The notes: generated from the letters alone by a model not told the origin. Positions 4,962 through 8,545 are shown, counted from the stretch's first letter. The stretch is DNA of 39,748 bases from Thomasclavelia cocleata (GCF_900102365.1 NZ_FOIN01000001.1:1-39748), one strand, 5' to 3'. Numbers and translations: made by a program.

Positions 4962-5279
4962 ATGGAAGTTAAGTTAAAAAGTATTCATGCTAATGTAATC
5001 AATGATAAGGAAGATTATGTGCCTAAAAATGTAAAAGCACGTATTGAAGTAGGGTACAGTCATAGTCAAAAAGAGAACCTGGTACTTAATTACCAGATTA
5101 AAGTAGGTGAGAATGAAAAAAATTTTTTTGTAGTTAAATGTGTATTTGAAATAGAAGATTATGATCATGAAATAAAAGAAAAAGTAATTCTTGATCAAGC
5201 GGTTGATATGCTGCAAGAACGGATTGAAATAATTTTAGGCTTAATTACTGAAGAAATGGGCTTTAATTTACAAGGTTGA
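4962..5279 (+). CDS. Small hypothetical protein upstream of the dipicolinate cassette
   Basis: A 105-residue soluble protein with a clear RBS (AAGGAGG, 8 nt before ATG). It looks like alternating amphipathic strands (KARIEVGYS, LVLNYQIKVG, NFFVVKCVFEIE) followed by a helix (LDQAVDMLQERIEIILGLITEEMG). This strand-rich order with a C-terminal helix is loosely like SecB-fold small proteins, but I do not recognise a family and give no function. A hairpin follows its stop, and a SigmaK-type promoter then begins the next transcription unit, so it is probably not part of the dpa operon. Confidence 0.65.
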   Translation: MEVKLKSIHANVINDKEDYVPKNVKARIEVGYSHSQKENLVLNYQIKVGENEKNFFVVKCVFEIEDYDHEIKEKVILDQAVDMLQERIEIILGLITEEMGFNLQG

Positions 5280-5298
5280 TGAAATTCACCAACCTTGT
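5270..5298 (+). terminator. Hairpin at the 3' end of the 105-residue gene
   Basis: The nine-base arms ACAAGGTTG (5270-5278) and CAACCTTGT (5290-5298) include the stop codon of the preceding gene. No T-run follows, so it may act as a weak terminator or 3'-end stabiliser; it directly abuts the predicted dpaA promoter. Confidence 0.45.
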
Positions 5299-5299
5299 A

Positions 5300-5326
5300 A
5301 CAAACTTAGATAATTATCATATTTTA
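5300..5326 (+). promoter_or_regulatory. SigmaK-type (late mother-cell) promoter of the dpa cassette
   Basis: CATATTTTA at 5318-5326 matches the SigmaK -10 consensus CATANNNTA exactly. AC at 5300-5301 lies 16 nt upstream, as in the SigmaK -35 element. Transcription would start at about 5332, only ~10 nt before ATG 5342, leaving just the RBS AGAGGTG. The match is read directly; use by SigmaK is inferred from the downstream dpaA/dpaB genes and the intact sigK at 29542-30228. Confidence 0.6.
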
Positions 5327-5341
5327 TAGTAGAGGTGAAAT

Positions 5342-6091
5342 ATGTTAGTTTATATTAATGGTACTGATAATCGCTGTAAATATTTAGCCAAGCTGATGGT
5401 TAAAGATGGTTATCAGATAGAAGATGATAGCAGGTTTATATCATCTTGTCAGATTGTATATCTGGGTAAAGATGGTAAAGGATTTGAACAAGTAGATTTT
5501 GCTTGTGATTCTGTTGTATTAACTTTATTAAAAAATCAAAGATTATGTTATTTAAGTAAATTAAAAGGATTTAAATATGATTATTTATATCATGATGAAC
5601 AATTTGTTAATGAAAACACTTATATTTGTGATGAAGCATTAATTGCGTATATGATAATTGATAATAATATTAGTTTATCAAATTCAAATATCTTAATTTT
5701 AGGTTATGGGCATTGCGGAAAAGATCTAGCTGGTAAATTTGAACGTTTTAATGCAAAGATTACAGTTTCAAATCGCAATGATCATTATCATGAAGAAGTA
5801 GTTGCTAGAGGATATCGTTATATTCGTTTGAATGAATTAACTTTAGAGGGTTATGATTTTATTATAAATACGATTCCAAGCAATATTATTACAGATAAGA
5901 TGTTATCGACTAAAGATGAAAAGTGTCAAATTTATGATGTTGCATCTAAACCATATGGTTTAGAAAATAGTAAAAGGGATACTAATTATCACTTATTAAA
6001 ACAATTACCAACTAAATATGCTTATCAAAGTAGTGCTTTTGCTTTATATAAGGCAATTAAAAGGGCAGTTGATACAAATGTTAAAAAATAA
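5342..6091 (+). CDS. dpaA: Dipicolinate synthase subunit A (SpoVFA)
   Basis: This is the NAD(P)-binding subunit that, with DpaB, converts the lysine-pathway intermediate to dipicolinic acid in the mother cell for loading into the spore core. The Rossmann region near residues 116-135 reads NILILGYGHCGKDLAGKF; later come DFIINTIPSNIIT and YDVASKPYGLE, matching the DpaA 'NTIP...ASKPGG' region. At 249 residues it is about 45-50 shorter than B. subtilis SpoVFA, the loss being in the N-terminal domain. The RBS AGAGGTG is 4 nt upstream. Its 3' end overlaps dpaB by 14 nt. Confidence 0.85.
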   Translation: MLVYINGTDNRCKYLAKLMVKDGYQIEDDSRFISSCQIVYLGKDGKGFEQVDFACDSVVLTLLKNQRLCYLSKLKGFKYDYLYHDEQFVNENTYICDEALIAYMIIDNNISLSNSNILILGYGHCGKDLAGKFERFNAKITVSNRNDHYHEEVVARGYRYIRLNELTLEGYDFIINTIPSNIITDKMLSTKDEKCQIYDVASKPYGLENSKRDTNYHLLKQLPTKYAYQSSAFALYKAIKRAVDTNVKK

Positions 6092-6668
6092 AAAAATTGG
6101 GATTGGGATCACAGGTTCTTTTTGTTCTTTAAAAAAATCAATGGTTGTTATTAAGGAATTAGTTAAACAAGAATGTGATTTGTATATTTTTGTCAGTGAA
6201 AAAATATTAACTTGTGATACTCGTTTTGACCAAGCTGATGAATTGATTGAGGAAATAGAGAAAATAGTTAAACGTAAAGTTATCAGTGATGTAGTTAATG
6301 CTGAAATTTTCGGACCTAAAATACCATTAGATTTAATGCTTGTTATGCCTTGTAGTGGAAATACACTTGCAAAACTTACTTATGGAATCAATGATAATGC
6401 TGTAACAATGGCATGTAAATCAACATTAAGAAATGAGAATAATGTTGTTTTAGCAATTGCAACAAACGATGCTTTAAGTAATTCAGGGAAAAATATTATG
6501 CAGATTTTAAATACAAAACATTTTTATTTAGTACCAATGTATCAAGATGATTGTGTAAAAAAACCTAATAGTATGCTGTTTGATGAAAACCTGGTTATTC
6601 AAACATTAATTAATTCTTTAAATAATAAACAGATTCAGCCAGTGTTTGAGGGGATTAAAGATGTATAA
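6078..6668 (+). CDS. dpaB: Dipicolinate synthase subunit B (SpoVFB)
   Basis: A 196-residue flavoprotein-fold subunit of dipicolinate synthase. The match to SpoVFB is clear along the whole length: IGIGITGSFCSLKK near the N-terminus, TCDTRFDQADELIEEIEKI, EIFGPKIPLDLMLVMPCSGN, ACKSTLRNENNVVLAIATND and a C-terminal VKKPNSMLFD ... KQIQPVF. I start it at ATG 6078 (MLKNKKIG) and not at the earlier in-frame ATG 6018, because the family begins directly before KKIGIGITGS and the upstream codons lie fully inside dpaA. The RBS is weak, so coupling to dpaA translation is likely. It overlaps the next gene by 8 nt. Confidence 0.88.
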   Translation: MLKNKKIGIGITGSFCSLKKSMVVIKELVKQECDLYIFVSEKILTCDTRFDQADELIEEIEKIVKRKVISDVVNAEIFGPKIPLDLMLVMPCSGNTLAKLTYGINDNAVTMACKSTLRNENNVVLAIATNDALSNSGKNIMQILNTKHFYLVPMYQDDCVKKPNSMLFDENLVIQTLINSLNNKQIQPVFEGIKDV

Positions 6669-7722
6669 AGTATTAAAATTTGGTGGTACGTCTTTACGTG
6701 ATAATGATTCAATAAGTGCAGTAAGTAGAATTATTAAAAAAAACTTAAATCATAAATTAATCGTAATTGTTAGTGCTATGGGACGTTATCCTGAACCTTA
6801 TGCAACTGATACATTAAAAGAATTAGTATCTTGGCAATTATCATATGATGAATACAGCCGAATTGTTAGTTGTGGTGAAACTATCAGCAGTGTGGTTTTA
6901 TCAAGTGAGTTAAGGAAAAAAAATATTAAAGCAATTTCTCTTTCTAGTTTACAGGCTGGTTTGAAAGTCAGAGGTAATCGACTAGTAGATTTTGATAAGG
7001 AAAAGGTAATTGAATATTTCAAGAAATATGATGTAATTATCCTTCCTGGATTCCAGGGGGTTGATAAATATAAAAATGTACGAATATTACAACAAGGTGA
7101 CAGTGATTATAGTGCTGTTTATATTGCTAGAAGAATGGATTTAGATGAAGTATATATTTATAGTGATGTTTGTGGGATTTATACTGGAGATCCAAAATAT
7201 ATTAGTGATGCTCGTTTGATCAAGCATGTGGGATATCGTCAAGCTCTTGATTTAGCTAAGCATAAAGCTCGAATAATTTGTTATAAAGCACTTCTTGAAG
7301 GTTATCACAAAGATGGATTTAAGATCAATTTACGGTCTATTTATAATGATAGTATTGGTACTTTAATCAATCATGATGATACAAAAATCAAGACGATGTC
7401 GATTGATTTTAATTACTGGCTAATACGTTTTGATGAAGAAATAGTAAAAAAAGATTTTAATTATTTATTTGATAAATATGAAAATGATTATCTTGTTTTA
7501 GAAGAAAATCTTCATAAATTAAAAACTAAATATACGAAAATAGACGCTTATACAAAAGTGCATTTTGTAGGGTGTGAACTTGAAAATGATGATATTTATC
7601 GTGATTTTTTAGAAAAGTTTGCTCTTACCTCAAATAAAGAAGCTGATAGTTATTATGTAAAAGTAAAGATGCAAAAGCAAGATATTAATTTACTACACGA
7701 TTTAATTGTTAGAAGTGATTAA
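6661..7722 (+). CDS. Aspartokinase homologue of the dpa cassette, with altered motifs
   Basis: A 353-residue protein with the amino-acid kinase fold of aspartokinase, which would make aspartyl phosphate at the head of the diaminopimelate/dipicolinate branch. KFGGTSL (residues 6-12), SCGETISS (70-77) and the nucleotide region YIYSDVCGIYTGDPK (~165-179) are conserved. The usual GRGGSDT motif instead reads QQGDSDYS (144-151). The last ~113 residues, where the two regulatory ACT domains normally sit, are short and divergent, so lysine or diaminopimelate feedback may be lost. ATG 6661 is chosen over TTG 6646: GAGGGG lies just upstream. Cotranscribed with dpaB (8-nt overlap) and the DapA homologue (2 nt apart). 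Confidence 0.8.
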   Translation: MYKVLKFGGTSLRDNDSISAVSRIIKKNLNHKLIVIVSAMGRYPEPYATDTLKELVSWQLSYDEYSRIVSCGETISSVVLSSELRKKNIKAISLSSLQAGLKVRGNRLVDFDKEKVIEYFKKYDVIILPGFQGVDKYKNVRILQQGDSDYSAVYIARRMDLDEVYIYSDVCGIYTGDPKYISDARLIKHVGYRQALDLAKHKARIICYKALLEGYHKDGFKINLRSIYNDSIGTLINHDDTKIKTMSIDFNYWLIRFDEEIVKKDFNYLFDKYENDYLVLEENLHKLKTKYTKIDAYTKVHFVGCELENDDIYRDFLEKFALTSNKEADSYYVKVKMQKQDINLLHDLIVRSD

Positions 7723-7724
7723 AA

Positions 7725-8516
7725 ATGAAAATTTTCACTAATTTGATCACACCTTTTAAAGAAGATGGAATTATTGATTATCAAGCTGTAGATGTTTTAA
7801 TCAAACGTTTAGCATTTCAAAAGAATCATTGTTTTATTATTGGAAGTTTTACTGGTGAAGGAATGCTTTTGAATCCAATTGAACTCAAACATTTAATTAA
7901 GTATATTTGTTATCATTATGATTTAGAGATATATGTTTATATTTTGCAAGAAAGTACTAAAAAAGCAATAGAACAAATTAATGAGCTTAATGATATTAAG
8001 GGGTTAACTGGATATATTGTTAAAGTACCTAGTATGGCTAGGTATTCAAATACAAGTATTTATAAACACATTGATTTGATTTCAGTAATTACAGATAAAA
8101 AAATTATTATTGATTTTTATCATCGAAATATTTTAGAAAATGAGGATGTTAAAATTTTATTGCAAAAGCATACCAATATCTGTGGATTAATTACTGAACA
8201 GGATTTTGATAGTTCAATAATAACAAAAAAATACATTCATGACAAAAATGTTTTAAAAATTCATCATAGTTATGATGGTATCATTAGTGATTTAAGCAAT
8301 ATTGATTATCAGTCTGTTAGTCTATTAAATGATAGTGAAGTAAACAGTGATTATTTTAATTTGTTAGTTAAATATTTTTATCGTGATAATATATCTAGCA
8401 GTTTAAAATATATTTTATCTAAAAAAGGTTATATTAATTATAGATTACGTTTGCCACTAGTTAAAATAGATGATAAATTAGAGAAACAGTTGAATAAATT
8501 AATGGAGAAATATTAA
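7725..8516 (+). CDS. DapA (dihydrodipicolinate synthase) homologue lacking the Schiff-base lysine
   Basis: A 263-residue TIM-barrel homologue of DapA, the enzyme that condenses pyruvate with aspartate semialdehyde. Conserved landmarks are LITPFKEDGIIDYQA at the N-terminus, SFTGEG (41-46, the TTGES loop) and the C-terminal RLPLVKIDDKL, which aligns with RLPLVPL of B. subtilis DapA. The catalytic segment VVAIKEASGD aligns without gaps to ICGLITEQDF (152-161), so the Schiff-base lysine is replaced by Ile156. The YNVPGRT tyrosine region is also divergent (DFYHRN). The protein is ~27 residues shorter than usual. It is the last gene of the dpa operon. It may be inactive, structural, or catalytically rewired. 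Confidence 0.75.
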   Translation: MKIFTNLITPFKEDGIIDYQAVDVLIKRLAFQKNHCFIIGSFTGEGMLLNPIELKHLIKYICYHYDLEIYVYILQESTKKAIEQINELNDIKGLTGYIVKVPSMARYSNTSIYKHIDLISVITDKKIIIDFYHRNILENEDVKILLQKHTNICGLITEQDFDSSIITKKYIHDKNVLKIHHSYDGIISDLSNIDYQSVSLLNDSEVNSDYFNLLVKYFYRDNISSSLKYILSKKGYINYRLRLPLVKIDDKLEKQLNKLMEKY

Positions 8517-8545
8517 TTTATTTCTCCATTAATACTGTTTTTTTA
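8498..8545 (+). terminator. Intrinsic terminator of the dpa operon
   Basis: The perfect 14-base arms ATTAATGGAGAAAT (8498-8511) and its complement (8520-8533) enclose the DapA-homologue stop codon and are followed by CTG and seven T (8538-8544). An outer AAACAG/CTGTTT pair extends the stem. Confidence 0.85.

Follow-up and report, generated by a model that had tools for sequence, protein, structure and literature searches.

In Bacillus subtilis, the mother-cell sigma factor sigma K transcribes dpaAB and dapA, and does not transcribe dapB (PMC9024752). The known catalytic set of dihydrodipicolinate synthase (DHDPS, DapA) consists of Lys161, which forms the Schiff base, the Tyr133/Thr44/Tyr107 triad and Arg138 (PMC5109050). 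Similarly, in the Escherichia coli aspartokinase LysC, the amino and carboxylate groups of aspartate are bound by Glu119 and Arg198, the latter holding the alpha-carboxylate (PMC5481828). Here we analyzed a stretch of 39,748 nucleotides from Thomasclavelia cocleata (GCF_900102365.1, NZ_FOIN01000001.1:1-39748), hereafter the window, which is part of contig C48 in a genome of 2.96 Mb (G000) and comes from a genus of spore-forming gut bacteria. The window carries a dipicolinate operon in the order dpaA, dpaB, an aspartokinase-like gene and a dapA-like gene (positions 5342-8516, plus strand), the last of which appears to encode a DHDPS pseudoenzyme.

The DapA-like gene (7725-8516, plus strand) encodes a protein of 263 aa, which matched the DHDPS Pfam profile (PF00701, 46.6 bits, cut-off 22.1) and fell below the cut-off of the DapA equivalog TIGR00674 (63.8 bits, cut-off 206.15). 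Structure prediction gave a DHDPS barrel (Z-score 20.8 to E. coli DHDPS 1dhp, root-mean-square deviation 2.9, 235 residues). In alignments with relatives, the place of the Schiff-base lysine is taken by Ile156 (codon 8190-8192, plus strand), and in the model this residue ends strand 6 of the barrel (E152-156). An initial annotation made from the sequence had put Ile156 at this position and was right about the residue, but the ungapped match to VAIKEA of B. subtilis is C-G-L-I-T-E and not G-L-I-T-E-Q as it had written. Isoleucine is shared by the five copies known in the genus, and lysine is kept in 27 DapAs of dipicolinate cassettes outside it. The TGE loop and the C-terminal RLPLV are kept, as it had also stated; the loss of the active site is wider than it had noted, since the protein also lacks the residues corresponding to Thr44, Tyr107, Tyr133 and Arg138. 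All these losses, together with that of Lys161, are common to the five genus orthologs, which also all retain the TGE loop and Thr45 (the pyruvate-carboxylate loop). A replacement lysine was sought among the lysines invariant in the genus (K55, K79, K125, K228), and none of them ends strand 6 in the secondary-structure assignment; K228 is also conserved in active relatives. Judged from its sequence, the DapA-like protein cannot be a Schiff-base enzyme.

The gene has nevertheless been maintained in a way which differs from that of a decaying copy. Between the window and G006, the nonsynonymous rate (dN) was 0.136 and the synonymous rate (dS) 0.872, giving a dN/dS of 0.156 (bootstrap 0.097-0.239); pairwise values were used because saturation makes the genus-wide IQ-TREE omegas (0.02-0.04) unusable. 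No stop was found in any of the five copies, down to 37% identity, when, over 0.44-0.87 substitutions per site, a simple model predicts approximately 17-22 stops for a frame of the same make-up evolving neutrally. The replacements are clustered (p < 0.0005, 0 of 2000 codon-order shuffles being as extreme), with a dN per 40 codons of 0.03 at the N-terminus and 0.43 around the dead lysine. Also, of the 31 columns that hardly vary among 28 active relatives, at least four of the five pseudo-DapAs retain 15, mostly at scaffold positions, and 10, including the triad and Arg138, are lost in all five. This pattern reads as a scaffold kept and a pocket abandoned, and argues against plain decay. The initial annotation had preferred maintenance to simple decay, and the dN/dS of 0.16, the constraint on the scaffold and the five intact DapA-like frames speak for the same view.

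The genus copies were grouped in a single clade of the gene tree (100/100), on a long stem and with a long-branch warning, and descent was therefore judged by gene order and profile matches. dpaB scored over its curated cut-off in 33 of the 43 genomes of the family. A DapA lies beside dpaB in 12 genomes of other family genera, and all of these keep Lys161, the triad and Arg138, one of them (G015) having a glutamate in place of Thr45. In another family of the same order, 15 of 15 dpaA-dpaB-dapA loci keep all six residues, the contig ending within dpaB at one of them. Every one of the 27 outside cassette DapAs examined is directly downstream of dpaB, and these proteins are the best outside matches of the genus DapA-like profile, ahead of any other DapA. 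With 27 intact copies out of 27 and such profile matches, the DapA of the ancestral cassette would have been active-looking, and in the genomes searched the change is limited to this genus. A scan of contigs for relatives gave one locus, which was on the same contig as that of G006.

Within the genus, the DapA-like gene is present in five of nine genomes, namely that of the window, G006 (76% identical), G002 (46-47%), G001 (40-41%) and G007 (37-39%). It is gone from G008, where the last ten or so codons remain, and from G003/G004 and G005, where the deletions are clean and no convincing remnant was found. Given the operon trees, this corresponds to at least three independent losses among the nine genomes, and such repeated natural deletions indicate that the gene is dispensable. 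All five carriers also have the aspartokinase-like gene, three genomes have the latter alone and one has neither; the three genomes with the kinase alone indicate that it does not need the DapA-like protein, the sample being too small to argue the converse. In G004, the 1.6-kb stretch that follows the loss (L053:4156-5798) contains an unrelated frame of approximately 398 codons on the opposite strand, which is absent from the close relative G003 and thus represents a recent insertion.

The aspartokinase-like gene (6661-7722, plus strand), found in eight of the nine genus genomes, would be the second altered member of the cassette. Its product contains an amino-acid kinase domain (AA_kinase, 122.8 bits, cut-off 24.9) and scored below the cut-off of the aspartokinase subfamily TIGR00657 (153 bits, cut-off 208.7). 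The initial annotation had described an altered GRGGSD motif and a short, divergent ACT region. The motif Q144-Q-G-D-S-D149 (7090-7107, plus strand) is real, with Arg198 changed to Gln and Gly200 to Asp (E. coli LysC numbering), and the C-terminal region is indeed short (353 aa in total, against 412 aa in the DapG-type enzyme of the same genome). Yet, with no Pfam ACT match, the model (predicted local distance difference test, pLDDT, 88.4) still overlays solved aspartokinases over its whole length, ACT-like pair included (Z-score 32 over 345 residues). Across the eight genus copies, the Arg198 position holds Lys in six, Gln in the window and Pro in G007, and Gly200 is replaced by Asp in all, giving GDSD throughout. 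Glu119 is kept and Arg198 lost in 8/8, which breaks the aspartate-binding pair; KFGG, Glu119, Ser201 and Asp202 are kept in nearly all copies. The pocket motifs are strongly constrained, 36 of 53 columns being invariant against 57 of 197 elsewhere in the domain (p = 4e-7). The two cassette kinases found outside the genus (G016 and G026) also have a short C-terminus and keep RGGSD intact, as GRGGSD or ERGGSD, and RGGSD is present in both housekeeping kinases. Because the pocket for the nucleotide and the amino acid is conserved but the arginine that grips aspartate is replaced, the protein probably either binds a ligand with altered specificity or acts as a regulator, instead of being a normal aspartokinase.

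The four frames are intact and tightly packed, as the initial annotation had pointed out, with overlaps of 14 bp between dpaA and dpaB and 8 bp between dpaB and the aspartokinase-like gene, then a gap of 2 bp before the DapA-like gene. A sigma-K-type promoter precedes them (5298-5326, plus strand), composed of a -35 block TAACA (5298-5302), a 14-nt gap and a -10 block TCATATTTTA (5317-5326). The sequence TAACA-N14-TCATATTTTA fits, with one mismatch per block, the sigma-K consensus KCACM / GCATANNNTA (PMC3416734), whose blocks are separated by a gap of 14-16 (PMC517825). The -10 block is identical and the AC of the -35 block is kept in all nine genus genomes, and the remaining spacer drifts. 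Counted over the whole window, the motif shows no enrichment (2 seen, 2.06 expected); within 150 bp upstream of dpaA, AC-N16/17-CATAnnnTA was found at 26 of 33 loci, one genome being counted twice, against 0.23 expected. We infer that the operon is expressed in the mother cell, and the conserved promoter supports the mother-cell-specific branch proposed in the initial annotation. By analogy, the cassette would inherit a logic like that of B. subtilis, with sigma K acting on dpaAB and dapA and not on dapB. Upstream of dpaA, the window contains a frame of 105 aa (4962-5279), which is conserved across this genus and genus g9 and has no Pfam match. Downstream of the DapA-like gene are a ribonuclease J gene and then spoIIIE.

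The first two genes had been described as orthodox, which is true of only one of them. DpaB (6078-6668, plus strand), the flavoprotein subunit B of dipicolinate synthase, passed the equivalog model PRK08305 (228.2 bits, cut-off 156). Subunit A, DpaA (5342-6091, plus strand), is short (249 aa) and divergent: the DpsA model was its best family match with 90.7 bits, for a cut-off of 261, and Pfam gave Rossmann-type domains only, the nearest solved structures being 3d4o and 2rir (DpaA). In genus g9 (L054, L059, L060, L061, L063, L064), still shorter and highly divergent DpaA frames of approximately 210-233 aa, 26-29% identical, adjoin a well-conserved DpaB, which raises the question of whether that dipicolinate synthase is still normal.

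Second, canonical copies of the lysine-pathway genes, whose existence the initial annotation had considered, are present elsewhere in the genome of the window. The housekeeping dapA has its catalytic lysine and sits in a lysine operon with dapB and lysA, two ordinary, intact aspartokinases were also found, and a housekeeping dapA was detected in 9/9 genus genomes. The same nine genomes all encode Spo0A and the dipicolinate-uptake protein SpoVAD. Each contains between two and four DNA-binding domains of the Spo0A type (for example G000:C17:5756-6787 and C48:46316-46627), and in several of the genomes one lies beside spo0A in divergent orientation. Just upstream of the housekeeping dapA, in the lysine operon, lies a gene for an ACT-only protein of approximately 156 aa (L009:6206-6706, contig C31 of G000), also found in this position in at least 36 other family genomes. 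It resembles a lone aspartokinase regulatory subunit, and in G026 that slot is occupied by a full aspartokinase; it seems that this protein lost the catalytic domain and retained the regulatory half.

Taken together, these data lead us to favor, with a probability of approximately 0.68, a genus-specific DHDPS pseudoenzyme with a non-catalytic role, putatively a binding subunit, while 4-hydroxy-tetrahydrodipicolinate (HTPA) comes from the housekeeping DapA. In this reading, the operon derives from a mother-cell cassette under sigma K, dpaA-dpaB-(aspartokinase)-dapA, in which DapA provided the HTPA needed for dipicolinate. At the root of the genus, this DapA lost all of its catalytic apparatus, as seen from the sequences, the distribution and the housekeeping copies, and the housekeeping DapA would now supply HTPA to DpaAB. 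The barrel scaffold is still under purifying selection in five of the nine genomes, and it is this selection on a dead scaffold which makes a non-catalytic role the most likely one. The protein may bind the housekeeping DapA, DpaA/DpaB or the aspartokinase-like protein, modulating or holding its partner. The scaffold or partner role suggested in the initial annotation is thus compatible with our data and preferred, the partner itself being only putative. Several points weigh against this explanation. The binding partner is a proposal only, the DapA-like model is weak in its C-terminal third (pLDDT < 50 at 219-248), and dS is close to 0.9, near saturation. One alignment out of three puts a lysine of G007 in the catalytic column; we rejected this lysine as a catalytic residue, as a displaced gap brings it there and disrupts the G-L-I motif common to the copies. 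Also, the gene evolves faster than its neighbors (dN 0.136 against 0.052-0.077; dN/dS of the neighbors 0.056-0.075) and at least three lineages have deleted it, which makes its role minor or conditional.

The same rate and the same deletions would fit a slow decay, in which the cassette DapA became redundant once the housekeeping DapA sufficed and was lost gene by gene, the intact frames being transient or kept only since a misfolded product or a broken operon is harmful. The DapA-like gene is the fastest-evolving of the operon, it is missing from 4/9 genomes, and some other genera have no dapA adjoining dpaB. We nevertheless consider slow decay unlikely in view of the upper bound of 0.24 on dN/dS, the absence of stops down to 37% identity and a constraint that tracks scaffold positions. 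New chemistry in the barrel without a Schiff base, which the initial annotation had also considered, is very improbable: Thr45 and TGE, kept in all five copies, may still bind a carboxylate ligand, but the other residues of the former pocket vary among the copies, and this former pocket, the strand-6 region in particular, is the least constrained and fastest-evolving part of the protein. As for the aspartokinase-like protein, we consider it more likely to be altered or regulatory than to be the active, feedback-free aspartokinase that had been suggested to feed the branch. The shortened ACT-like region, the kept KFGG, Glu119, Ser201 and Asp202 and the constraint on the pocket would suit such an enzyme, and the lysine found in six of eight copies could still bind the carboxylate. 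However, Arg198 has become Gln in the window and Pro in G007, every copy has Asp for Gly200, the model retains an ACT-like pair, and the short-tailed cassette kinases outside the genus keep their motif, so that shortening of the tail is not enough to account for the change; this makes a feedback-free enzyme doubtful. It is conceivable, although we regard it as speculative, that the dead DapA and the aspartokinase-like protein, the latter in a ligand-binding role, are a neofunctionalized pair forming a mother-cell regulatory complex, which would sense lysine-pathway metabolites and steer the housekeeping DapA or DpaAB to dipicolinate.

The heat resistance of spores depends on the supply of dipicolinate. 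As a DHDPS-family pseudoenzyme, the DapA-like protein would act in a role nobody has described, and no paper on such a pseudoenzyme was found in a literature search made mostly without subscription papers. The locus offers a before/after contrast: in sister genera the gene at this place in the operon looks active, here it is dead, and close relatives have lost it by natural deletion. One can thus test directly how a spore-metabolite cassette goes on working after its dedicated enzyme dies, and whether dead subunits tune the supply of dipicolinate.

Compared with known systems, the DapA-like protein shares with the sigma-K cassette DapA the slot after dpaB, the operon, the type of promoter, the barrel fold, the N-terminal loop and the C-terminal RLPL, and differs in lacking the Schiff-base lysine, the Tyr/Thr/Tyr triad and Arg138. 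The same residues separate it from the housekeeping DHDPS (PF00701/TIGR00674), of which it has the fold (Z-score of approximately 20.8) and scaffold residues, with 63.8 bits to TIGR00674 for a cut-off of 206. The promoter of dpaA resembles the sigma-K promoter of spoVFB in Epulopiscium (PMC3416734). The aspartokinase-like protein has the kinase motifs of the monofunctional, DapG-type aspartokinase except for GRGGSD, and its fold (Z-score of approximately 32), but with R198K/Q/P, G200D and a shortened ACT region. Finally, the closest parallel for a dead paralog retained next to an active paralog that shares its fold is the deoxyhypusine synthase of trypanosomatids, in which the dead paralog activates the enzyme approximately 3000-fold (PMC3663545); there the complex and the activation were demonstrated, whereas for the DapA-like protein they are only proposed.

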